In this document: one piece after another, positions 1,933-31,647 of the stretch
Position numbering within the stretch: position 1 is the stretch's first letter
Layout of the letters: the number at the start of each line of letters is the position of its first letter
From: a virus
DNA: 32,957 bases
Reading direction: 5' to 3' (one strand)
Virus record (IMG/VR): IMGVR_UViG_3300024294_000034
Span: 1-32,957 of that record
Notes under the pieces: generated by a model
Databases searched by the model: none
Seen by the model: only the letters and a program-made list of their open reading frames with translations
What the model was told of the DNA's origin: nothing
Translations under genes and position numbers: made by a program

Positions 1933-4347
1933 TTAAATTTCGCCAGTATTTACGATTCTAATTGGAATATAAATAAATTCTGCTGATTTTGTAGGCTCAA
2001 TTGCTACATCAACATAAAATTCATTTGCATCAATTCTTGCTGGTGTGTTGTTTGTTGTATCACAAACTACTGCAAAGTCATAAACACCACGTTGTGCCAT
2101 AATGTTTGCTAAGAAACCAGTAAATGTTGCTTTAGCATTTGTACGAGTATCTTCGTCATTTGGCTCAAACAAGTAAGGTCTTGCTATTACGGCAAAACGT
2201 TCTCTAAGATAAGCTGTAAGTCTTGCAACGTTAACTCTATCTAATGCTGATGCACTTGGATGCATTGATTTTTGTCCAAATACTACAACACCCTCTGTAG
2301 GGAATTTTGCAATTGGATTCATCTTCTGCTCATACATTGCATCTCTAGAACCTTGTGTTAGTGCTAATGGTGTAAACTCATCTTCTGAGTTTAAGTAACC
2401 AACGTTAGTTGCGTTTTGTACTTGTCCACGTGTTAAACCTGCTGGTGCAAACCATTGGAAGCTCACGTTATCACTATATGCAAATGTATATAATGCAATG
2501 TGTGATGCTGGAGCAACAACGTTATCACCTGTTGAAGGGTTAGTTGTGTATGCATGTGGATAATAAACTGCACTGTATGTATTTGAAGTCACTAATCCAT
2601 CTTCGCCATTTTCTGCTGCACTTGTGCCTTGTTTCCAAGCAATTGCTTCAGTTTGATTTAAACGGAATGGAGCGTCAACAATAACAAATGCTGTTTCGTC
2701 TCTATCACTATTTAATGTTACCATTTCATCATACAACTCAGTGTAACCTGGAGCTGCAATTAAACGAAACGCTACTGTATCTTCACGTAGTTCTGATTTA
2801 CCTGCTGCTGACTGCATAGCTGTTGTAACAACTTTACGCTGAGCAAGTCTACCAAACGAGCCTTTACCAGTTGCCTGGTTAGATGCTTTATTACGCCATT
2901 TCCAAGTTGTAGTTAATGTTGCATCATATTCTCTAACAGTATTACCTGAGCGACACATATTAATACCAGTCATTCCAACTGGGTAAACTAGTGGATTTGG
3001 AGAGCCTGCTAGTAGTGTTGCTTCAAAGACGCCTGCTGCTGTATCATTAGCAGTAATGTCGCCAAATTCTACGCCTGCACTTGTGCTTTGGTCTGTAGCA
3101 TCTTTGGCTACCCATGCTGAACCGTTGTGTCTGTAAATTACAGGATAACCGCTTGCATCTGTATCAATCCAATAGTCGCCATCTGCTAATGCGTTGCCGC
3201 CTTTATCTGTAGTTGGTGCTGCTGTTCCATATTGTACGTCTGTTGCTCTTTTCCATTTTTGAACACCACTGTCTACTGCTACTTCGTAAACTGCTAATTC
3301 GTTTAAATCACCGTCGAACCAAAGTGTACCAGTTGCTGGATTACCAGTTGGTGCAGTTGTACCTGCAGATACTGGGTATGAACCTGAAGATCCAATACTA
3401 TTCCATGCAGCGCCATCATAACGTTTTAAAAGTAAGGCGCCTGTTGCTGCTGAATGATCGTACCATAAGTCGCCTTCTACTAATGTACGAGCAACTGCTG
3501 ATGAACCATCGTGGAATATGTCGTTTGTAGTTCCGTCTGGAGCATTATCGTCTGCATACAATACTGCTTTAGATGTAAACACACCTGAAGCATTTGTATA
3601 TAAACTTGGTGAAAGTTTTAATCCACCTTTTGATGTTGTTTTAATCCATACATCGCCTGCAGTGTTTGAAGATGGTGCTGAATAATGTGGAGCAAATGTT
3701 ACGTCATCTGCAAATCCAGAATCCAATGCATCCCAACTACCGCCAACACCTTTGTAATATACAAATGATGTTGCTGATGTATCGTTTACAACTTCAACAA
3801 GATAGTCACCGTTGACTACTGTTGCTGTTGCTGCCGCTGCTGTAGAAACAACTTCTACAGTTGGTGTTTTTTCTGCCCATGATGAGCCGTCCCATTCAAA
3901 TATTCCCCAACTAGCACCTGTTGGATTAACCCAATAAGTGTTATTTGCTGCAACACCTGTTGGTGCTGATGAACTTGGTCTAAGTTCAGTTAGATTAACA
4001 TCAGCACGTACAATATACGCTGCTGAGCTTTGACCTAAAAATGAGTATGCTGCTAAAAGTCCATATTCGTTAGTTTCATCACCTTGCTGAACTGTACCGC
4101 TTACTTTATGGAAATCAATGTTTCCGAAGTATTGTGTAAGTTCTCTTTGTGAAGTAACTAGAATAGGTTTGTTTGATTGTGCAGACTTTGTGTATTTTGC
4201 AATGCCATCTGTTTCAGTTAGGGTAGGATCTGCCTTATCCTCACCAGTAGCAATGAATAACATAGGAACAGTTCCGGCTCCTGCTGGGCCGTATACTGAT
4301 TCGTCTGTTACTGAAACCTGTACACCAGGTGAAGTAAGATTTGCCAT
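1933..4347 (-). CDS. gp18: Contractile tail sheath protein gp18 with a repeat-decorated insertion
   Basis: This 804-residue protein starts with the typical sheath N-terminus (SPGVQVSVTDESVYG, then a GTVPMLFIATGEDKADPT segment) and ends with the conserved C-terminal domain (FPTEGVVVFGQKS, LDRVNVARL, IARPYLFEPNDEDTR, ...FIYIPIRIV). Monomers assemble around the tube and contract to drive infection. T4 gp18 is about 659 residues. The extra length here comes from an insertion at about residues 125-418, built of six degenerate units of the type APT..GDYW.D...Y..GS.W (near 129-158, 181-206, 224-260, 289-318, 332-367, 377-415). Sheath variable domains point outwards, so the repeats probably form surface knobs. 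The ATG is set by an AAGGAG site 8 bases upstream. Confidence 0.95.
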   Translation of the reverse strand: MANLTSPGVQVSVTDESVYGPAGAGTVPMLFIATGEDKADPTLTETDGIAKYTKSAQSNKPILVTSQRELTQYFGNIDFHKVSGTVQQGDETNEYGLLAAYSFLGQSSAAYIVRADVNLTELRPSSSAPTGVAANNTYWVNPTGASWGIFEWDGSSWAEKTPTVEVVSTAAAATATVVNGDYLVEVVNDTSATSFVYYKGVGGSWDALDSGFADDVTFAPHYSAPSSNTAGDVWIKTTSKGGLKLSPSLYTNASGVFTSKAVLYADDNAPDGTTNDIFHDGSSAVARTLVEGDLWYDHSAATGALLLKRYDGAAWNSIGSSGSYPVSAGTTAPTGNPATGTLWFDGDLNELAVYEVAVDSGVQKWKRATDVQYGTAAPTTDKGGNALADGDYWIDTDASGYPVIYRHNGSAWVAKDATDQSTSAGVEFGDITANDTAAGVFEATLLAGSPNPLVYPVGMTGINMCRSGNTVREYDATLTTTWKWRNKASNQATGKGSFGRLAQRKVVTTAMQSAAGKSELREDTVAFRLIAAPGYTELYDEMVTLNSDRDETAFVIVDAPFRLNQTEAIAWKQGTSAAENGEDGLVTSNTYSAVYYPHAYTTNPSTGDNVVAPASHIALYTFAYSDNVSFQWFAPAGLTRGQVQNATNVGYLNSEDEFTPLALTQGSRDAMYEQKMNPIAKFPTEGVVVFGQKSMHPSASALDRVNVARLTAYLRERFAVIARPYLFEPNDEDTRTNAKATFTGFLANIMAQRGVYDFAVVCDTTNNTPARIDANEFYVDVAIEPTKSAEFIYIPIRIVNTGEI

Positions 4348-4440: not shown

Positions 4441-5208
4441 TTAGTTGTTATCAGAGGCTATATTTATCAAAAGTTGATCAAAACTTTCACAAATGTGCCT
4501 TGGAAAGTCGTTACCCCATAATCCATGAATAATCATATGGATTCGATTTTCTGTGCCTTTGTTGTGTACTGCATGCAATCTACCAATATCAATAGCACGA
4601 GCATCGCCTGGTTGCCATGGAATGAGTCCCGACTCTTCTAATGCAAACTCTACTCCTGGTGGATTACTTAATGCTACATTGAATGCCGCTAGGGCTCTAG
4701 TATCATAATCATTATGAGGTTGTATATATCCACCCGGTTCCAGTAGCATATATCTAACTCTATTGTACTTCTTAAACGGCCAAACATTTTTTAACCATTC
4801 AACTGTCACTGGACACTGATCGGCAATTTCTGTCCAGCCCACAGGTGGACTATTTTCTTCTGTATCTATTCCTTCGTCGATGTACCAATGGGGTGGTTGT
4901 GTTCTTTCTGCTGATTGTCCATGTATAGTAATACTACTCCAGCCTGGATTCCAGTTTCCTCTATGTTTTACATATCTACCCAAAAGCGATTCTGCTTCTT
5001 TAGCCATAGCTTCATGTGGGACTGGAATATTCATTACTAAACTTGGACAATTACTTTCTTTTGCAATCCATTTTGCATAGTCCTGCATCAATCCATTATC
5101 CTGTTGCCACCCTTTAAACATATCGCCTGGATTTTTTACATCCCAATAATGTGAATGTTCTTTACATTTATTTAAAAAATTTTCTAATTCTATTTCGTTT
5201 TGTTCCAT
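4441..5208 (-). CDS. Aspartyl/asparaginyl beta-hydroxylase-type 2OG-Fe(II) oxygenase
   Basis: This 255-residue protein has a C-terminal jelly-roll oxygenase domain of the Asp/Asn beta-hydroxylase (AspH) type. Visible features are RVRYMLLEPGGYIQPHNDYD with iron ligands H165 and D167, a strand NVALSNPPGVEFAL, WQPGDARAIDIGRLHAVHN carrying the probable distal ligand H215, and NRIHMIIHG with R222 as the probable 2-oxoglutarate contact. Family members hydroxylate Asp or Asn side chains in proteins, or small substrates. The target here is unknown. The first 130 residues match no domain I recognise. The gene overlaps the upstream 484-residue gene by 19 bases, so the two are co-translated and may act together. 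Family call firm, substrate open. Confidence 0.82.
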   Translation of the reverse strand: MEQNEIELENFLNKCKEHSHYWDVKNPGDMFKGWQQDNGLMQDYAKWIAKESNCPSLVMNIPVPHEAMAKEAESLLGRYVKHRGNWNPGWSSITIHGQSAERTQPPHWYIDEGIDTEENSPPVGWTEIADQCPVTVEWLKNVWPFKKYNRVRYMLLEPGGYIQPHNDYDTRALAAFNVALSNPPGVEFALEESGLIPWQPGDARAIDIGRLHAVHNKGTENRIHMIIHGLWGNDFPRHICESFDQLLINIASDNN

Positions 5209-6644
5209 TTTAGTAATTTTCCTACTGCATGATCGGGGAGACTAGCAAAGTCATCTGTGCTCCAGTTGTCTACCCATTTTAATCTATCTCTGCTGCCACT
5301 TGGACAAGCTGAACAAATCAATATATTATTGTTAATTGATACTTGTTTAAAATGATCCAATAATTCATTATGCAATTGCCAACGTTGTTGCAAACTATAA
5401 TAAAACGAGGTAGGCATATAATGAAATATATTACTTAGATGTACATATGATACAAAGTCATCATGTTTAACCGAATTAGCAAATCTTTTCATTTTATGTG
5501 GATCCATAATATTCATGTGATGATATATTACTTCACATGTTGGTAAAACTTCTTCTATCCATTTTTTAAATCCTCGATCATTTAACTTATCTATTGTTTC
5601 TTCACTGTCTTTTAACTGAGCTGCTCCCCTAAATATATCTCGTCTTCTATTCATATCCGGAGCGTTGTCTTTCATTATCTTTTCTGCAAATTCTCTATAG
5701 TTAGTACCGTCCCAATTTTCTATTATTTGTTGAGTAATTGTTATAGCAAATTTACTTATATCGTATACAAATATTTTACTATCCTTGGGCATGTCTAACA
5801 TAAACGCATATATTAATGGACTTAATCCTGCAGCCGGAACCATTAGTTTTCTAATTTCTCCATTCCATTCTGGATAATGCTGTTTCCTTCTATCAAACCA
5901 AGGTTTGTAATTTGGCAATGTTTCGGTATTGGCAATAAAAAATATATCTATACCCAATTGTTCTAAGATACCATTCATGTGTCTAGGTCCATCGTATTCA
6001 ACTTCTGGATATGTATAATGCTTTGCTTCTCTTATTCCCTCATTCCAAGATATAATTTGTTGTCCATCTTCCATAAGAGCATTTACTAAACTCCAACCAC
6101 CTTGTTTTCCTGTATAAGTTTTTGATACGTTACTTGGTTTAATCCAATGTGGAGTATATTGGTCATGCCAATTTTCTTCACTACGTATTGGTTCTATTGC
6201 ATTGTAAGGCTCTACATTATATTCGTAGTTTCCCCATTCAGGTTTACCTACACTAGCCCACCAATTTAAATCAATAAGAAATGCCTGAGGATGTATTGTA
6301 TAATAATTATCTTGTTGATCTAATATATGCCCTACAAATTTAGCATCTGGATTATCATCGTAAAACTTTACAAACTCATCCTGGAAATTCCACAGTGGAA
6401 TTGTACCTTGCTTAAAAACTAACATCTTAGAAAATCCTGCTTTATGGGCTTTCTCAAATAAAGATCCTATATGATCGTCAGCAAATTGTTGTCTTAAAAA
6501 GGTTGCCATTTCAACTGACCAATAGTCAGTTAAATTTTTTGTGTATCCTTTAGCAAAGTCGTTTTTAATATGGTTGTTATATATCCAACCTAGTGTGAGT
6601 TCTTTTGATTGGTTTTTGGAGTGCCACCATTCCGTGTTAAACAT
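5190..6644 (-). CDS. Unidentified two-domain protein, C-terminal half Rossmann/methyltransferase-like
   Basis: I do not recognise this 484-residue protein. The N-terminal half (to about 210) has MLVFKQGT, KFVGHILDQ and IHPQAFLIDLNWW segments, which loosely recall glycosyltransferase-like phage proteins. The C-terminal half looks like a nucleotide-binding alpha/beta fold. KLMVPAAGLSPLIYAF (residues 266-281) could be a degenerate SAM motif I, FVYDIS (292-297) an acidic strand end, and LSNIFHYM (403-410) sits where methyltransferases carry their motif IV strand. The gene overlaps the AspH-type oxygenase by 19 bases and has its own late promoter and an AAGGA site, so it is expressed late with the virion proteins. 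Modification of a virion protein or glycan is an inference, not shown. Confidence 0.5.
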   Translation of the reverse strand: MFNTEWWHSKNQSKELTLGWIYNNHIKNDFAKGYTKNLTDYWSVEMATFLRQQFADDHIGSLFEKAHKAGFSKMLVFKQGTIPLWNFQDEFVKFYDDNPDAKFVGHILDQQDNYYTIHPQAFLIDLNWWASVGKPEWGNYEYNVEPYNAIEPIRSEENWHDQYTPHWIKPSNVSKTYTGKQGGWSLVNALMEDGQQIISWNEGIREAKHYTYPEVEYDGPRHMNGILEQLGIDIFFIANTETLPNYKPWFDRRKQHYPEWNGEIRKLMVPAAGLSPLIYAFMLDMPKDSKIFVYDISKFAITITQQIIENWDGTNYREFAEKIMKDNAPDMNRRRDIFRGAAQLKDSEETIDKLNDRGFKKWIEEVLPTCEVIYHHMNIMDPHKMKRFANSVKHDDFVSYVHLSNIFHYMPTSFYYSLQQRWQLHNELLDHFKQVSINNNILICSACPSGSRDRLKWVDNWSTDDFASLPDHAVGKLLKWNKTK

Positions 6645-6670: not shown

Positions 6671-6679
6671 ATATTTATC
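6671..6679 (-). promoter_or_regulatory. Late promoter overlapping the end of gp1
   Basis: Minus-strand GATAAATAT includes the gp1 stop codon (GGATAAATAT, where TAA is the stop) and lies 27 bases upstream of the 484-residue gene. It would let the oxygenase module be expressed late and independently of the early gp1 transcript. Confidence 0.6.
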
Positions 6680-7316
6680 CAATGATCTTTTGTAATGTTT
6701 GTTGTTTAAATTCTTCTAGAGTAGAAGTATTATGAAGTTCTAAATCAAACTCCCATCCTGCCCAACTCCATTCACTTTTATGTACGTCTGGATATCTACC
6801 TGTCATACCATCAACTAAATGAGGAGCATTTCCTGAAGCAGTTGCTATATTAAGAGTAGAAGCATTATTCCACCATATTGGTTTGTTGTGTCTCCAAACA
6901 ACAGTAGTTGTTCCGCCTAAACGTTTAATAGCACTTAGTTCGTTGAAAAATCTACAATCACTAATAACAACATTTGTTTCTGCCATAGCAACCTGACGTT
7001 CACATGCAGCAACCCATATGTCCGGATGAAAGTGAGTTCTTAGTACATCTGTTCCTACTTGTTGAAGTGCAAGTCTAGGAGTAAAATTTGGTATATCTAA
7101 TCTAGCAGACCACCACTCATCTGGTGTTTCTCTCCACTCTCTACTTTCGTTTGTAGATCCTTCTAATAATTCTCTATCCCATCCAAACACGTTAGCACAA
7201 GCGTCTTTTAAAACACCTGCAAAACTAATTCTATGGAATCCTTCTTCTATTAAAAAGCCAGCAGCAGTGTCTTTGCCATGACCTATTAATCCGCATATAC
7301 CTATAATTTTCTTCAT
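6675..7316 (-). CDS. gp1: Deoxynucleoside monophosphate kinase (T4 gp1 family)
   Basis: This 213-residue protein has a P-loop close to its N-terminus (GLIGHGKDT, residues 9-17), then FAGVLKDACANVFGWDRELLEGS, the LQQVGTDVLR motif typical of phage dNMP kinases, a Walker B-like VVISDCRF, and a C-terminal VWRHNKP segment. T4 gp1 phosphorylates dGMP, dTMP and hydroxymethyl-dCMP to feed DNA synthesis. The start is fixed because the P-loop begins only eight residues in. A perfect -35/-10 pair upstream places the expected transcription start on the A of the ATG, with no Shine-Dalgarno sequence, so the mRNA is predicted to be leaderless. Confidence 0.92.
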   Translation of the reverse strand: MKKIIGICGLIGHGKDTAAGFLIEEGFHRISFAGVLKDACANVFGWDRELLEGSTNESREWRETPDEWWSARLDIPNFTPRLALQQVGTDVLRTHFHPDIWVAACERQVAMAETNVVISDCRFFNELSAIKRLGGTTTVVWRHNKPIWWNNASTLNIATASGNAPHLVDGMTGRYPDVHKSEWSWAGWEFDLELHNTSTLEEFKQQTLQKIIG

Positions 7317-7537: not shown

Positions 7538-8275
7538 TTAGCCGATTACAAATCCGAGCCCAGTACTTCCATCACTGTATAATGTTAGTTCCATCTCTAA
7601 TTTATCAATCTCACCTTGAGCGTCTGTTCTCAATTGGTCTGCGTTCATTGTAGTACCACCCTGTGGTCCTGCAATCTGTGTAAACTTACCACGAGCTTCA
7701 GCTAGAATTAGTTTAGCATGAGCAAATGCGTAATCCTTTATCCAAGGACCTGCATAAGTATCTTCAAGTAAACTTTCAGTTGGTCTGTAGTTATAGCAAT
7801 GCAGTACTGCATTGTCATCTGCTTTAATTTTTCTTTGTAGGATTAATTTTTTATCTTGTGGGCGCCAAGTAAACATTAGTTCTGCACCAAATAGTCTACC
7901 CATTGTTTCTCTGTTTTGTTGTAAGAAATCAAAACTTGATAGTCCACCATTTCTGCTACTACCTAATAAGTATGTGTTAAGGTAAGCTGCTTGAAATGGT
8001 TCAATGTCATTTCCTGTTCCACTGCTTACACCTGTTGTACGTCTGTAAATATCACGTACTTCCATTACTTCTGATGGAAGTGTATATTCACTTTGATCTT
8101 TTATTATTTCAAGAATGATAAAACTTTCTTCTACGGCATTCTCAGCTCGTTGACGATATTTTGCTAATGCCTTATCGGCGGCAAGTTCATAGTGTTCTGG
8201 ATCGAGTTCAACATCGATCATTCCACCGCCTAAGCGTAGTTCTATTTCTTTTTGAAGTTTATTTATTGCTGCCAT
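7538..8275 (-). CDS. gp13: Neck protein gp13
   Basis: This 245-residue protein has the gp13-type pattern of T4-like marine phages: an N-terminal helix-rich part with ALAKYRQRAENAVEESF, then EYTLPSEVMEVRDIYRR, PFQAAYLNTYLL, GRLFGAELMFTWRPQDKKL, YNYRP, WIKDYAFAHAKLILAEARGK and the C-terminal IAGPQGGTTMNADQL...LGFVIG. In T4, gp13 joins gp14 at the head-tail neck. The ATG follows GTAGGAG, and a late promoter lies 18 bases upstream. Unlike T4, gp14 and gp15 are not adjacent. They lie 3 kb away on the opposite strand, beyond four accessory genes. Confidence 0.9.
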   Translation of the reverse strand: MAAINKLQKEIELRLGGGMIDVELDPEHYELAADKALAKYRQRAENAVEESFIILEIIKDQSEYTLPSEVMEVRDIYRRTTGVSSGTGNDIEPFQAAYLNTYLLGSSRNGGLSSFDFLQQNRETMGRLFGAELMFTWRPQDKKLILQRKIKADDNAVLHCYNYRPTESLLEDTYAGPWIKDYAFAHAKLILAEARGKFTQIAGPQGGTTMNADQLRTDAQGEIDKLEMELTLYSDGSTGLGFVIG

Positions 8276-8292: not shown

Positions 8293-8301
8293 GTATTTAT
8301 C
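8293..8301 (-). promoter_or_regulatory. T4-type late promoter for gp13
   Basis: Minus-strand GATAAATAC lies 18 bases before the gp13 ATG. The predicted start just downstream leaves only enough leader for the ribosome site. Confidence 0.7.
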
Positions 8302-10305: not shown

Positions 10306-11277
10306 TTATTTTTCGTTGATTTGACGCTCAAATTCTCTTAAACGTTTAAATACACTCATTAATTCAATAAGTGTTGGCCACGCTCTAAAGAGGTATTGCA
10401 TTGAACCTTCAACTCTACCAAATGCACGAATAATCTGTTGCATTACACCTAGTGTTACAACGCCGGCTACAATGGCTGGTGCTAAGAATACATAAGCTGA
10501 TAACACATTTGCTTGTAAATATGTAATTCTACCTACATTGAAATACAAATAACGCAAATAAGACTTAAAGTGAATTGAACGAACATCTTGGAAAAGTTCA
10601 TTAATAGTCTTTGGTCTCACTGTCTCATCATCTTCTGCAATAACAAGTATCTTACGATATGCTGCTTCTTTCTTCTGTAAGTCATATTCAACACCAACTA
10701 GGCGTAATACCCAACCTAGTGCAATTAAGAATAATGTACCACCTACAGACCAAACAATAGCACCTGTTACTAGTCCATACTGCCAATCACCAAAGAAGAA
10801 GATTGGAATACCAACTGATAGTCCTAATAGAATAGGAACAAACTGTACTAGAACCATAATTGATTCAATAAAACTTGTGCCTAAACCTTCCATAATTCTA
10901 CTGAATTTAATTGTATCTTCTTGTACCCTTTGTGCGGCACCTTCAATAGTTCTAGCTTTGTCATATACTGAATGATACCATTCTACCATTGCTGTACGCC
11001 ATCTAAATAGATAGTGAGCTGTAAAATAACTTACTACAACTGCGATACCGACATATATAGCGGCTAAGTATAAGAAACTTGCTAAACTACTCCAATACTC
11101 ACCTATTGTGATTGCATTGGGTGTTGCTAGGGCTTTCTGGATCATATCATAAAACTGACCAAACCATTCGTTAATTTTAACATCAATTTCGACTTGTACC
11201 CAAAGTGATGATAAAATTATTGCTGATCCTAACCAGGACCACAATGCCCATTTCTTTTCTGTGAAAAATCTAAACAT
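10306..11277 (-). CDS. sbmA: SbmA/BacA-family inner-membrane peptide transporter homologue
   Basis: This 323-residue membrane protein carries the SbmA/BacA signature throughout: FRWRTAM (91-97), IEGAAQRVQEDT (111-122), KEAAYRK (203-209), YLYFNVGRITYLQ (243-255), FLAPAIVAGVVTLGVM (264-279) and LIELMSVFKRLREFE (303-317). Hydrophobic segments lie near 11-28, 65-88, 137-161, 167-190 and 257-280. E. coli SbmA (about 406 residues) imports peptides such as microcins and proline-rich antimicrobials using the proton gradient. This copy starts where the conserved region starts and lacks roughly the first 85 residues. No ATP-binding domain is present, as in SbmA itself. An AGGA site precedes the ATG. 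A late promoter-like site lies upstream and a terminator follows, so it is a self-contained cassette inside the neck gene region. Confidence 0.88.
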   Translation of the reverse strand: MFRFFTEKKWALWSWLGSAIILSSLWVQVEIDVKINEWFGQFYDMIQKALATPNAITIGEYWSSLASFLYLAAIYVGIAVVVSYFTAHYLFRWRTAMVEWYHSVYDKARTIEGAAQRVQEDTIKFSRIMEGLGTSFIESIMVLVQFVPILLGLSVGIPIFFFGDWQYGLVTGAIVWSVGGTLFLIALGWVLRLVGVEYDLQKKEAAYRKILVIAEDDETVRPKTINELFQDVRSIHFKSYLRYLYFNVGRITYLQANVLSAYVFLAPAIVAGVVTLGVMQQIIRAFGRVEGSMQYLFRAWPTLIELMSVFKRLREFERQINEK

Positions 11278-11360: not shown

Positions 11361-11369
11361 GATAAATAC
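11361..11369 (+). promoter_or_regulatory. T4-type late promoter for gp14-gp15-nudix
   Basis: GATAAATAC on the plus strand lies 21 bases before the gp14 ATG, with an AAGGA ribosome site in between. It is the only late motif on this strand that I matched to a gene. Confidence 0.7.
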
Positions 11370-11389: not shown

Positions 11390-12457
11390 ATGCCAAGACT
11401 CAGTTTATACAAGCCTTTTAAAGGAAACGATTATACTTTTATGGATCATAGTATCCGTGAACAGTTTGATATAGGTGGAACAGGTATACACGTACACAAA
11501 TACCTAGGACCCGATCCACAAAAAGGTAATTCAGACCCAAGCGAGCCTAACTACGGCAGTGGATTAGAAATTGACAACATTACGGGTGAAGAAATTAATC
11601 CGGAAGGATTAATAGACGAAACTAACATACAAGACTTATTGTTTATGGAAAACAGAGATCGTAAATACGATCCTGATGTGTTTGAATTACGTGGTGTATA
11701 TAATGTTAGTGACAATGACTTTGATTTAACACAATTTGGTTTGTTTTTAACAAATGATACACTGTTTATTAGTTTTCATATCAATGACATGGTAGAACGT
11801 ATGGGGCGTAGACTTATGCCCGGTGATGTAATTGAATTACCACATTTGCGTGATGAATTATTACTTACTAACGACAGAGATGCTATTAATAAGTTTTACG
11901 TTGTACAAGATGCAGCAAGAGGAAGTGAAGGATTTTCACAAACCTGGTATCCACACATTTGGCGTGTTAAAGTAGCACCATTAACAGATACACAAGAATA
12001 CGCAGATATACTTGGTACTGCTAGTGATCCAGATAGTCTTAAAAATGATGTTAGTTCTTACAAAACAGAACTTAACATTAGTAATGCTATTGTGGCTTCT
12101 GCAGAAGCAGCCAATCCAAATAACTTACCACTTGCTGATCATTTATTTGGGCAAGCAGATACTAGTACAACATATGAACATGGTGAAGTATTACAACAAG
12201 GTGATCAATTTCCTGCTCAACCAAACGAAGGTGAGTATTTTGTGAGAACAGATTTTACGCCTAACAGACTTTTTGTTAGACGTGGCAGTAAATGGCATAG
12301 ACTATACGACAATGTCACTGAGCAAACCTGGAGTGATAAAACTTATAACGCTAGCCAATTTATTAACAACGATGCTACAACAATAGTTGATAATGTCGAG
12401 ACACCAGAGAAGCAACCGTTGTCTCAAGTAATTAAACCAAAGAGTGATTTTGAATAA
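11390..12457 (+). CDS. gp14: Neck protein gp14 with a C-terminal extension
   Basis: The 355-residue product begins MPRLSLYKPFKGNDYTFMD and carries the gp14-type features: GTGIHVHKYLGP, IQDLLFMENRDRKYD, FELRGVYNVSDNDFDLTQFGLF, FISFHINDMVERMGRRLMPGD, INKFYVVQDA and WYPHIWRVKVAPL (to about residue 205). In T4, gp14 (256 residues) forms the neck with gp13 and receives the completed tail. The last 150 residues exceed T4 gp14 and contain a NEGEYFVRTD...LFVRRGSKWHRL unit resembling the repeats inserted in the sheath. The stop overlaps the gp15 start (TAATG), so translation is coupled. T4's order 14-15 is kept, but on the strand opposite to gp13. Confidence 0.8.
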   Translation: MPRLSLYKPFKGNDYTFMDHSIREQFDIGGTGIHVHKYLGPDPQKGNSDPSEPNYGSGLEIDNITGEEINPEGLIDETNIQDLLFMENRDRKYDPDVFELRGVYNVSDNDFDLTQFGLFLTNDTLFISFHINDMVERMGRRLMPGDVIELPHLRDELLLTNDRDAINKFYVVQDAARGSEGFSQTWYPHIWRVKVAPLTDTQEYADILGTASDPDSLKNDVSSYKTELNISNAIVASAEAANPNNLPLADHLFGQADTSTTYEHGEVLQQGDQFPAQPNEGEYFVRTDFTPNRLFVRRGSKWHRLYDNVTEQTWSDKTYNASQFINNDATTIVDNVETPEKQPLSQVIKPKSDFE

Positions 12458-13815
12458 TGGCACAACAATACTTTTACGATAAACAAATTAGAAGATACAT
12501 TCAACAGTTTATAAGACTGTTTAGTGGATTTAGTGTACAAATGGGTAAGAACGATAACGACCTACCTGTATATCAACAAGTACCTGTACGATACGGTGAT
12601 ATTAGTCGTATGGCAGCACATATACAGAGAGAAAATTCAGAAAACGTTATGAATACTGTTCCATTTATTAGTTGTTATGTAACATCATTGGATATGTTTG
12701 CTGAAAGGCGCACATATCAAGATCATATTGATAAAGTTCAGATAAACGAAAGAAAATTTGATCAAACTACAGGAGAGTATACAAATGAACTAGGCAACCA
12801 ATATACTGTAGAACGTTATGCACCAGTGCCGTATAAGTTAATAATGAACTGCGATATATGGACATCAAACACAGATCAGAAACTACAACTAATGGAACAA
12901 ATACTAGTATTATTCAATCCTACTCTTGATATAAGAACCAATGATAGCCCGGTTGACTGGACTTCATTAAGTCATGTAGAATTAACAAATACAACATGGA
13001 GTACGAGAAGTGTAGGTTCGAGTATTGATGATATTATCGACGTTGCTACATTAACATTTGATCTTCCAATATACATTACTCCACCAGCCAAAGTAAAACA
13101 ACAAAAACTTATTCATACTATTATCAACGAGTTGTATAACTTAGACGATGCTAATTTAGATAATTTTAAAGATAATTTAGCATTCAATACAGAAACTTTA
13201 AAATATACTATTGTAACATATGAAAATAAACAAGTAAAGTTTTTAAACAATACTTTACAAATATTAAATAACAAAGGTTCTAATTTAGGAGATGATGGAT
13301 TAGTAATGGAATGGGATAAAGAGTTATTACCATTTGGCGTATTAAGAGATGGCATAAGTCAATTGAGACTCAGAAAAGGATCTGATGTAAATGATAATGC
13401 AAACGATATAGTGGGTAGATTAGATTCTCACCCAAGTAATCCTAACTTGCTTAATGTTACTATAGATACTGCAACATTACCGGCAAACACATTAACAGCA
13501 ATTGATGGAGTAATTGATCCATCAAACAATTACCCTGGCGATGGATCTGTTCCTGTTGCAACTACTGGGCAACGTTACATTATTTTAAATGATACTCCTA
13601 TAAATGCACTATGGACTAATGTAATTGCACATAAAAATGATATTATAGAATATAACGGTACTACATGGACTATTAGTTTTGATAGTTCATCAAATAACAC
13701 AACACAATATATAACAAATGTATCAAGTGATGATCAGTTGGAATGGAATGGAACAGAGTGGGTTAACAGTTATGAAGGAATTTATAATCCTGGATACTGG
13801 CGAATATATTTGTAA
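12457..13815 (+). CDS. gp15: Tail sheath stabiliser/terminator gp15 with a C-terminal extension
   Basis: This 452-residue protein has an N-terminal part (about 1-240) of the T4 gp15 type: YFYDKQIRRYIQQFIRLFSG, LPVYQQVPVRYGD, NTVPFISCYVTSLDMFAERR, RYAPVPYKLIMNCDIWTSN, QLMEQILVLFNPTLDI and DVATLTFDLPIYITPP. T4 gp15 is 272 residues and caps the finished tail so that it can bind the neck. Here about 200 extra residues follow, including two Trp-containing beta units (IIEYNGTTWTISF and QLEWNGTEWVNSY) like those in the sheath insertion. The start overlaps the gp14 stop by one base. This call is firm for the N-terminal domain. Confidence 0.88.
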   Translation: MAQQYFYDKQIRRYIQQFIRLFSGFSVQMGKNDNDLPVYQQVPVRYGDISRMAAHIQRENSENVMNTVPFISCYVTSLDMFAERRTYQDHIDKVQINERKFDQTTGEYTNELGNQYTVERYAPVPYKLIMNCDIWTSNTDQKLQLMEQILVLFNPTLDIRTNDSPVDWTSLSHVELTNTTWSTRSVGSSIDDIIDVATLTFDLPIYITPPAKVKQQKLIHTIINELYNLDDANLDNFKDNLAFNTETLKYTIVTYENKQVKFLNNTLQILNNKGSNLGDDGLVMEWDKELLPFGVLRDGISQLRLRKGSDVNDNANDIVGRLDSHPSNPNLLNVTIDTATLPANTLTAIDGVIDPSNNYPGDGSVPVATTGQRYIILNDTPINALWTNVIAHKNDIIEYNGTTWTISFDSSSNNTTQYITNVSSDDQLEWNGTEWVNSYEGIYNPGYWRIYL

Positions 13816-14287: not shown

Positions 14288-15370
14288 TTAGCGTTTTTTC
14301 ATACTAGCAACAAACTGTTCACGCAACCATTCAAAATCATTAATTTTACTTAACGCTTCTACATCGTCTTTGTGTTCAATGCCGTATGCTTTTCCTTCGT
14401 TTGCACCTTTAAGACAGTAGCGTCCAAAACGTCCACCGTTGTCTACAGTACACCAAGTTTCAAGTCTTGCATCTGTTTCTTTTTGTCTTTGGTTAGGGTT
14501 TACAGAACTTGCTAACTTAACACATTCACGGAATGCACTACGCCATGTTCTATATGGGTCTTTATTAAATCGTGTAATGTTTGATACATCAGCAATTGGT
14601 TGGTAAAAAGATACACCTGTTGTATAATCTGGTAATTCGTGTCCTAATGATAATAACTGTTCACGTGGGAATAATTTAACACCACCGTATCCATATTCTA
14701 AATCATTAATTGGATTTCTCGCACTCCAAACATAAGTTGTATTTTTTCTTTTACTCATTGGTGGAATAAAATCAAAACTAAAGTGTCCTGTAATATCTGC
14801 ATCTGCGTCAACAATATAAATCATTTCAGTTTTTGCTAATTCACCAACTTTTTTATGTGCGTTACCAATGCCTTCAACATTTTTAACATGTTGAGCATCT
14901 TTAAATCTTTCTCTTAGTTTTGTGAAGTTTTCATCTGCCTCTGCTTCATGGAAACTAATCATAAACACATCAAATTCTGCAACATGGAAACTTGATACAA
15001 TCTTATTTTGTACAGTAGTATGTGCAACACCATTAGTAGGAACTAACTGGATGTCTCCCCAACTAACTGGTCTATTTGTTCTTTTAACTACTCTAGGAAA
15101 AGTATGAATTACAGTTTTTGCAAGGCTATCACTTGGTCTATATGTCCAAGGAAAGTTAGGATTTACTTCAATTTCATCAAATACTACCCATACCATGTCT
15201 GCTTTATCTTTGTATGGTAATGCTGCTTCTAACAGTGCAGCCTCATCAGTTATCTTAATCGGTGTTTTAATAACTGGATATGAATCGAACATAAACCTTT
15301 TTAATCTATCCCAAGGTGTTACAACATTTTGTCCTTGGTATTCTCTTTGTACATTGTGTAAATTAATCAT
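14288..15370 (-). CDS. Glycosyltransferase-like protein with a DxD-type motif
   Basis: I place the start at 15370 (MINLHNVQRE), where the ATG overlaps the end of the preceding gene and is preceded by AAGGG. The longer frame is less likely. The 360-residue product has a GT-A-like layout: a strand FDVFMISF, the sequence NVEGIGNAHKKVGELA, then MIYIVDADADITGHFSFDF (DxD motif around 188-192), and a downstream SARNPINDLEYGYGGVKLFP. The DxD motif would bind the metal of a nucleotide-sugar. The pattern is frequent in large marine myoviruses. It pairs with the next glycosyltransferase in one operon. Whether the acceptor is DNA, a virion protein or a host glycan is unknown. Confidence 0.65.
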   Translation of the reverse strand: MINLHNVQREYQGQNVVTPWDRLKRFMFDSYPVIKTPIKITDEAALLEAALPYKDKADMVWVVFDEIEVNPNFPWTYRPSDSLAKTVIHTFPRVVKRTNRPVSWGDIQLVPTNGVAHTTVQNKIVSSFHVAEFDVFMISFHEAEADENFTKLRERFKDAQHVKNVEGIGNAHKKVGELAKTEMIYIVDADADITGHFSFDFIPPMSKRKNTTYVWSARNPINDLEYGYGGVKLFPREQLLSLGHELPDYTTGVSFYQPIADVSNITRFNKDPYRTWRSAFRECVKLASSVNPNQRQKETDARLETWCTVDNGGRFGRYCLKGANEGKAYGIEHKDDVEALSKINDFEWLREQFVASMKKR

Positions 15371-16013
15371 TGCAATCGCCCTTAACTGTATATGCACGTG
15401 TTCCTATATGTGCAATTCTGTCACTTAAATCATGACTAATATTTACTTCGTATCCATTTTCATTTGCTAGATTACAAAAGTAAACATCTTCTCCTACTAA
15501 ACTAGTATAATCTTCATTATACTCAATTTTATAGTGAGGTCGAGAAATATTTTCGTATACTTCTCTTTTTACTAACATCATTCCACTTCCTACTGCCCAT
15601 ACTTTTTCAATTCCTTTTCCTGAAAAAACTCTACTGTCTAAATCAGTTTTGCTTTTAAAGGCAACCGGCCTGTGGGGCGGAACTCTTGTTGAGTAATTTC
15701 CAGCTACAATATTTTTATTGGCTGCTAATAGTATATTTAGCGTATCTACTGGAAACTGCATATCTGCATCAATCCACATAATGTGAGTACAATCTGTATC
15801 TAGTGCTTGATCTACTAATTGTTGTCTTTGCATTGCTACTTCACTACCCATATTAAAATGTAATGAAGTTGCAAGTCCAGTCTCACCACACTTTTTTTGA
15901 AGCATGGCTAAACTATAAGCAAAGACCGCCGTAGTTTGATTCTGCACAGGAACACAAATGGCTACATTTGCGGAATTGTCTTTTTTGTAATAATGGTTAG
16001 TTGTACTGACCAT
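15363..16013 (-). CDS. GT-A glycosyltransferase (family 2-like)
   Basis: The 216-residue protein shows a compact GT-A fold signature: VAICVPVQNQ at the start, MQRQQLVDQAL, HIMWIDADMQFP with the metal-binding IDAD (81-84), IVAGNYSTRVPPHRPVA, VWAVGSGMMLVKREVYENI, and GEDVYFCNLANENGYEV (from 174), whose ED pair is the likely catalytic base region. It ends with LSDRIAHIGT. This architecture is common in phage-encoded glycosyltransferases. The gene starts four bases after the 140-residue gene and overlaps the second glycosyltransferase by eight bases. The shared promoter is sigma70-type, so sugar transfer is expected early rather than at virion assembly. Confidence 0.8.
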   Translation of the reverse strand: MVSTTNHYYKKDNSANVAICVPVQNQTTAVFAYSLAMLQKKCGETGLATSLHFNMGSEVAMQRQQLVDQALDTDCTHIMWIDADMQFPVDTLNILLAANKNIVAGNYSTRVPPHRPVAFKSKTDLDSRVFSGKGIEKVWAVGSGMMLVKREVYENISRPHYKIEYNEDYTSLVGEDVYFCNLANENGYEVNISHDLSDRIAHIGTRAYTVKGDCND

Positions 16014-18261: not shown

Positions 18262-18270
18262 GTATTTATG
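18262..18270 (-). promoter_or_regulatory. Late promoter-like site for the 468-aa fibre gene
   Basis: Minus-strand CATAAATAC overlaps the stop codon of the methyltransferase gene, 25 bases upstream of the fibre ATG. It is one base off the commonest form. Confidence 0.5.
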
Positions 18271-18907
18271 ACTTTTGGGCAAATACATTCCAACATGGAT
18301 ATTTCCCCCACTCGTTATAAGATTGTAATATAGTATCGTCTAATATTTTAATATCCAGATAATCAAACTCATCCCATGTTTGCTTTTCTACAGTAGGTGG
18401 TTGAAAATTATATGGATTATTTGGAAATTCTTCAATTTTACCAGGCTCTGGAATAAATTCTTCATCTATATTATTATGGCCGCTTTGATTAATATATATT
18501 CCATTATCTTTAAGTACTGCACGTAGTTGTTGATGATAAAATAGTCTTTGTTGTTGTTTATTATCTACTGTATGAATTGACGCACAAAACTGATGGAAAT
18601 ATCCAAAGTCAATTACAACATCATATGTGTTGTTACTCCAATTTTGTTCTTCTAAATTCTTAAGTTCAAATGTTACATTACTGTGTTTTGCAGTTGCTTG
18701 TTTTATTGCTTCTCTAGAATTATCAATAGCATGAACATTAAAACCTTGTTCTGCTAGATAAAATGCATTTCTTCCTATTCCACATCCAATGTCTAATATT
18801 GTTGCATTTTGTGGGAAGTTACTTATACATTGTTTAAGAAATAATGCAGGTTCATGGCCCCATGCAGGGTTGCCTTTTTTATATATACTATCAAATGAAT
18901 AAGTCAA
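18266..18907 (-). CDS. Class I SAM-dependent methyltransferase (TehB-like)
   Basis: A 213-residue protein with motif I ILDIGCGIGRNAFYLAEQGFNVHAIDNS (glycine loop at 40-46, acidic D62), a motif II/III region NVTFELKNLEE, and motif IV YDVVIDFGYFHQF. The closest general pattern is the TehB/thiopurine methyltransferase group. The start is TTG, chosen because a GGAG site lies 7 bases away and the conserved IYKKGNPAWGHEP segment begins soon after. The gene is squeezed between two fibre genes with 13 bases to its upstream neighbour, so it is expressed late with them. The substrate is unknown: a fibre protein, a small molecule or a host target are all possible. Confidence 0.85.
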   Translation of the reverse strand: MTYSFDSIYKKGNPAWGHEPALFLKQCISNFPQNATILDIGCGIGRNAFYLAEQGFNVHAIDNSREAIKQATAKHSNVTFELKNLEEQNWSNNTYDVVIDFGYFHQFCASIHTVDNKQQQRLFYHQQLRAVLKDNGIYINQSGHNNIDEEFIPEPGKIEEFPNNPYNFQPPTVEKQTWDEFDYLDIKILDDTILQSYNEWGKYPCWNVFAQKS

Positions 18908-20105: not shown

Positions 20106-20114
20106 GTATTTATC
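20106..20114 (-). promoter_or_regulatory. T4-type late promoter for the 386-aa gene
   Basis: Minus-strand GATAAATAC lies 25 bases upstream of the ATG, just after the terminator of the 645-residue fibre gene. Confidence 0.7.
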
Positions 20115-31638: not shown

Positions 31639-31647
31639 GTATTTATC
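31639..31647 (-). promoter_or_regulatory. T4-type late promoter for the 200-aa gene
   Basis: Minus-strand GATAAATAC lies 37 bases upstream of the ATG and 25 bases past the ncRNA terminator. Confidence 0.7.

Follow-up and report, generated by a model that had tools for sequence, protein, structure and literature searches.

The window, by which we mean the whole stretch of 32,957 bases analysed here, is a genome fragment of an uncultivated virus with contractile-tail genes (Table 1). Two overlapping genes, encoding a protein referred to here as B484 and an AspH-type oxygenase, occupy the interval between its dNMP kinase and tail sheath genes. Both open reading frames were recovered where a preliminary description of this DNA had placed them, with the ATG of the oxygenase gene falling within the last codons (KWNK) of the upstream B484 gene. 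Near its tail-fibre genes, the window further encodes one glycosyltransferase-like protein and one class I methyltransferase.

Table 1. Position of the two-gene unit and of other features in the window
Feature	Position	Strand	Remarks
Tail sheath	1933-4347	-	Flanks the pair, downstream of the oxygenase gene
AspH-type 2OG/Fe(II) oxygenase	4441-5208	-	PF05118; 255 aa
GATAAATA	4461-4468	-	Within the 3'-terminal part of the oxygenase gene; 113 bases upstream of the sheath gene
B484	5190-6644	-	484 aa; GT-A-like domain without DXD (about 5-230) and class I methyltransferase-like domain (about 230-469)
B484/oxygenase gene overlap	5190-5208	-	19 bases
GATAAATA	6672-6679	-	Late-promoter-like octamer, 27 bases before the B484 start
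dNMP kinase	6675-7316	-	Flanks the pair on the B484 side
Ad2-like adaptor	7538-8275	-
SbmA/BacA peptide-transporter homologue	10306-11277	-	Full length; PF05992, E 6.3e-141
Sheath stabiliser	12457-13815	+
Glycosyltransferase-like protein	15363-16013	-	Near tail-fibre genes
Class I methyltransferase	18266-18907	-	Near tail-fibre genes
Further copies of GATAAATA, examples	1826-1833, 8294-8301, 11361-11368, 20107-20114, 31640-31647		Before same-strand genes

The octamer GATAAATA is enriched in the window (10 copies against 2.4 expected, a number reached in none of 100 shuffles), and eight of the ten copies are located 18-113 bases before the start of a gene on the same strand. Judging from these positions it is probably the late promoter of this phage, and the common late promoter proposed in the preliminary description is thereby retained as a prediction from sequence. 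T4 CTAAATA and TATAAATA showed no enrichment in the window. The two-gene unit, probably read from the one putative late promoter upstream of B484, is delimited on its far side by the copy located inside the oxygenase gene.

Predicted folds and conserved residues of the two proteins

The oxygenase scores 41.4 bits against PF05118 (gathering cut-off 22.6), a family comprising human AspH, bacterial LpxO and proline hydroxylases, and which also takes in free-proline and nucleoside hydroxylases. Its AlphaFold model (pLDDT 95.9) displays the double-stranded beta-helix of these enzymes (Z 13-14), the best structural match being the nucleoside-antibiotic hydroxylase 7v4m (Z 14.4), followed by human AspH and proline hydroxylases (about 13 each; 12.7 for the proline cis-4-hydroxylase). 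Residues H82, R83, W90, R150, R152, H165, D167, N177, H212, R222 and H224 are invariant in 34 of 34 homologues. H165, D167 and H212 make up a standard HxD...H iron site and R222 is probably the 2OG contact, so that every homologue possesses the HxD/E...H ligands and the 2OG arginine of a 2OG/Fe(II) oxygenase. Human AspH, the Asp/Asn beta-hydroxylase of EGF domains, has by contrast a two-histidine iron site, HxG...H (PMC8252765), whereas Asp167 of the phage enzyme varies in none of the 34. The phage oxygenase also differs from human AspH in having no TPR domain, and from its PF05118 relatives in the KHRG and WT motifs conserved in its own clade and in its conserved partner gene. The initial reading as an Asp/Asn beta-hydroxylase-like enzyme with its iron ligands in place was therefore right as to the family and the ligands, but the residues indicate a PF05118 oxygenase that is not an AspH in the strict sense. 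Its substrate is not deducible from PF05118 membership, since the HxD...H site is unlike that of AspH and the family includes free-proline and nucleoside hydroxylases.

Sequence searches with B484 retrieved no relative in Pfam, PHROGs, NCBIfam, PADLOC or PDB, and a weak match to a designed protein was rejected as a helical coincidence. The AlphaFold model built from 41 homologues (pLDDT 93, pTM 0.89) is confident, as is that of the oxygenase, and fold comparison recovered for B484 what had been guessed from sequence, a transferase-like N-terminal and a Rossmann/methyltransferase-like C-terminal half. Residues 5-230 are predicted to resemble GT-A folds (LH3 residues 293-543, Manic Fringe and the PBCV-1 capsid glycosyltransferase, Z about 9) and residues 230-469 class I methyltransferases (6ulo, Z 10.8; CheR, 9.4; NNMT and AviRa, 8.0). 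The best Foldseek match is the LH3 segment, which we take to be the second, accessory GT-like domain of this enzyme and which resembles B484 in its fold alone (Z 9.4, 7% identity). The only structural matches spanning all of B484 are uncharacterised proteins encoded by uncultured phages.

Because its GT-A half is devoid of DXD, B484 is unlikely to be an active metal-dependent glycosyltransferase, and the transferase-like reading has to be narrowed on this point. No acidic-x-acidic/His column pair exceeds 46% of the 41 homologues, and the position expected for the motif from the strand order reads KQG/xxG, with G80 invariant. Some GT-A enzymes do without DXD; its absence lowers the likelihood of transferase activity, and the N-terminal half of B484 is probably not a classical glycosyltransferase. 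The C-terminal half shares with class I SAM methyltransferases a Rossmann-like arrangement, a strand 2 ending in the acidic D295 and N405 at motif IV, but departs from them by a degenerate glycine-rich motif I and by having no family-level sequence match. As motif I is AxG, with G273 invariant, and not GxGxG, the use of SAM is not certain, and Z values of 8-11 may arise from nothing more than a common arrangement. Invariant residues are present in the N-terminal half (H106, H118, Q120, S155, Y163-T164-P165, R205 and Y212) as well as in the C-terminal half (G273, D295 and N405), and both halves thus appear functional. In the N-terminal half, H106, H118 and Q120 belong to a conserved polar cluster that also takes in D109, H160 and D161.

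Linkage of B484 and the oxygenase

Loci were gathered separately with B484 and with the oxygenase and then clustered, which gave 42 non-redundant B484 sequences. The oxygenase is adjacent to B484 in 37 of these 42, being located downstream in 30, upstream in 4, in divergent orientation in 2 and fused in 1. Downstream oxygenase genes mostly overlap B484 by 4-32 bases, and in one case a second B484 copy lies between the two. Among the five B484 loci without an adjacent oxygenase, two abut the end of a contig, and the three others (L097/L101/L105 type) have one about 9-10 kb away on the same record; the enzyme is encoded in all 18 virus records with B484 that were searched whole. One locus (L144) showed the oxygenase without B484 in the 6 kb upstream, on a contig ending about 300 bases downstream. 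In four loci (L078, L095, L096 and L158) the pair and the genes next to it are on opposite strands, and the natural fusion, a single frame of 739 amino acids, was found on five contigs originating from different metagenome projects. Divergence is strongly correlated between the two proteins (Mantel r 0.884 for their distance matrices, the best of 2000 permutations giving 0.349).

Conserved adjacency, fusion, co-occurrence after rearrangement and correlated divergence support the view that the two genes form a dedicated unit. The co-occurrence that the preliminary description had proposed to look for was thus observed in nearly all carriers, contrary to the never-associated homologues that it had named as the refuting outcome. 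An obligate complex is not implied, because the genes are apart in three lineages and divergent in two. Genes of unrelated function can be packed with short overlaps in phage operons, and B484 and the oxygenase might accordingly be chance neighbours, unrelated auxiliary genes of one operon; this is highly improbable and is contradicted by a co-occurrence that persists where the genes are inverted, swapped in order, separated or fused and where their surroundings have changed completely.

B484 is itself subject to duplication. Tandem copies precede a single oxygenase gene in L030 (5064-7983) and also in L043, L047 and L048, and short paralogues of about 370 amino acids, which lack the middle but retain the beginning of the N-terminal half together with the methyltransferase half, are present in G003 (123000-124091) and G004 (144654-145742).

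In bringing together a 2OG oxygenase and GT-A-like domains, the pair recalls the collagen enzymes LH3/PLOD3 and ColGalT1. Collagen lysyl hydroxylases associate hydroxylation with GT-A domains, one of which is a non-catalytic accessory domain. The likeness is one of working, an analogy and not membership: a catalytic GT and an LH-type oxygenase on one chain were not found here, the oxygenase belonging to PF05118 instead of the LH domain, B484 having an extra methyltransferase-like half and no DXD, and a single lineage being fused.

Genomic surroundings and distribution of the pair

In the tree, the sheath-linked pairs constitute one derived clade, in which no radical-SAM gene was found within the retrieved flanks. 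Outside this clade, 24 distinct pairs had usable flanks (27 before three contig-truncated sheath-clade members were removed by hand). Radical-SAM genes accompany the pair in 19 of these loci and number three or more in 17; in L032, ten of them occur along with a sheath gene. By NCBIfam, the radical-SAM genes of these islands are N_Twi_rSAM members (E as low as 1e-113), and some islands also encode radical-SAM enzymes of the B12-binding kind, a nitroreductase, a tryptophan halogenase and several additional members of PF05118. The island of L163 (3910-12219), for example, combines the B484-oxygenase pair with radical-SAM genes, the tryptophan halogenase (E 7.8e-72) and no fewer than four other PF05118-like enzymes. 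Close radical-SAM genes are missing around the pair in L095, L096, L158, L143 and L102. Four long records of the window clade carry N-twitch genes elsewhere (3, 19, 10 and 3 copies), the other, shorter ones carrying none, and the 204-kb record G003 has a second B484-oxygenase pair inside its radical-SAM island. The association of the pair with N-twitch radical-SAM genes is a descriptive one.

The assignment of the pair to the sheath gene region thus holds for the window and one derived clade, the pair being elsewhere in radical-SAM islands or alone. A virion protein cannot be read as the target from this neighbourhood, since the pair sits elsewhere outside the sheath clade, and the direct tie of the pair to the tail sheath is weak. 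The SbmA/BacA homologue of the window is present in all nine records of the sheath-linked clade and in none of eight others. With PADLOC, considered for a defence-system reading, the pair had no match and the radical-SAM neighbours matched viperin models weakly, as generic radical-SAM enzymes.

The content of the islands, where as many as ten radical-SAM genes may be grouped and where B12-binding radical-SAM enzymes, multiple members of PF05118 and, in L163, the halogenase are also encoded, would fit a phage-borne natural-product pathway, derived from a peptide or an amino acid, of which the sheath clade would keep a relict or trans-acting version; the N-twitch genes found in trans in the four long window-clade records and the second pair of G003 point the same way. 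We consider this quite unlikely, given that no precursor peptide, NRPS or exporter was identified (small ORFs were not systematically searched), that the pair also occurs away from close radical-SAM genes and that the sheath-linked clade keeps it intact with none adjacent.

Radical-SAM-rich T4-like marine viruses, which likewise have large myovirus-type genomes and many N-twitch radical-SAM genes, were noted earlier without a function being given (Nishimura 2017, PMC5332604; PMC7029224). In pelagimyophages, an aspartyl/asparaginyl beta-hydroxylase was called core, and the glycosyltransferases and radical-SAM cassettes of the host-recognition cluster were interpreted as serving O-chain modification (PMC7029224); the pelagimyophage HTVC008M contains neither B484 nor the oxygenase. 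This interpretation, together with the GT-A/nucleotidyltransferase fold of the N-terminal half of B484 and the nucleoside-antibiotic hydroxylase as best match of the oxygenase, would suit a pair that tailors a host-surface glycan, lipid or nucleotide sugar, for O-antigen or lipid A remodelling or superinfection exclusion, with an LpxO-like or small-molecule hydroxylase and a glycan-directed transferase. Such a role appears rather unlikely: the GT-A half has no DXD, the window pair adjoins the dNMP kinase and sheath genes and not nucleotide-sugar genes, and no sugar-nucleotide gene was seen among the scanned island neighbours.

All relatives of B484 but one come from viral metagenome contigs, the exception being a MAG contig, and none from a cultured phage. 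Three of four diverse members searched by tblastn against 50,697 cultured phage genomes gave nothing at E values of 1 or below; for the B484 of the window, tblastn against cultured phages gave a single, meaningless terminase match (E 2). One scan of bacterial genomes returned one relative (L174), on the Bdellovibrionales MAG contig JAHDFM010000016.1, where B484 and the oxygenase are adjacent with radical-SAM genes alongside; a prophage, contaminating phage DNA and a bacterial cluster are all conceivable origins. Limnohabitans phage DC33 (L175), a 39-kb record placed in Inoviridae and unusually large for that family, has a distant oxygenase beside an ORF of 510 amino acids that profile comparison rejected as a B484 relative. 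Matches to N-twitch radical-SAM enzymes in cultured phages were restricted to Vibrio phages and one 'Marine' record, at about 21-24% identity among the matches listed. No description of the B484 family or of its pairing with an oxygenase was found in the open-access literature.

A candidate tailoring module

From the observed coupling, folds, conserved oxygenase site and context, we infer that the pair may be a two-enzyme tailoring module, probably a complex, acting on one common substrate, a proposal to which we give roughly even weight. With Fe(II), O2 and 2-oxoglutarate, the PF05118 oxygenase would hydroxylate this substrate at a carbon, and B484 would, after or before this step, transfer a group, most simply a methyl from SAM, by its C-terminal methyltransferase-like half, while its N-terminal GT-A-like half, having lost DXD, would bind or position the substrate. 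We favour a peptide or a protein as substrate over a surface glycan or a small metabolite, which are less probable, given that the N-twitch radical-SAM enzymes found alongside have as their nearest named relatives, for the most part, maturases of peptides or enzymes; in the window clade, a late-expressed phage protein would be the simplest candidate. Of the dedicated modification pathway suggested initially, the coupled unit is retained; glycosyltransferase activity is unlikely and an Asp/Asn substrate cannot be deduced.

More tentatively, and with considerable doubt as to the whole, B484 and the oxygenase could be the core of an undescribed and widespread phage modification system, which in large aquatic phages would form, with N-twitch radical-SAM arrays, B12 enzymes and halogenases, a phage-borne biosynthetic pathway, and which in the window clade would be reduced to a sheath-side two-gene unit hydroxylating and alkylating a late phage protein.

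Many radical-SAM genes of marine phages lack an assigned purpose. As the pair recurs in such islands, alone and in the sheath operon, it provides a minimal two-gene version that is open to expression and assay. If a virion protein is modified, this would be a chemistry for which we found no report in phage tails; if the pair is part of a biosynthetic pathway, phages would carry their own tailoring chemistry.
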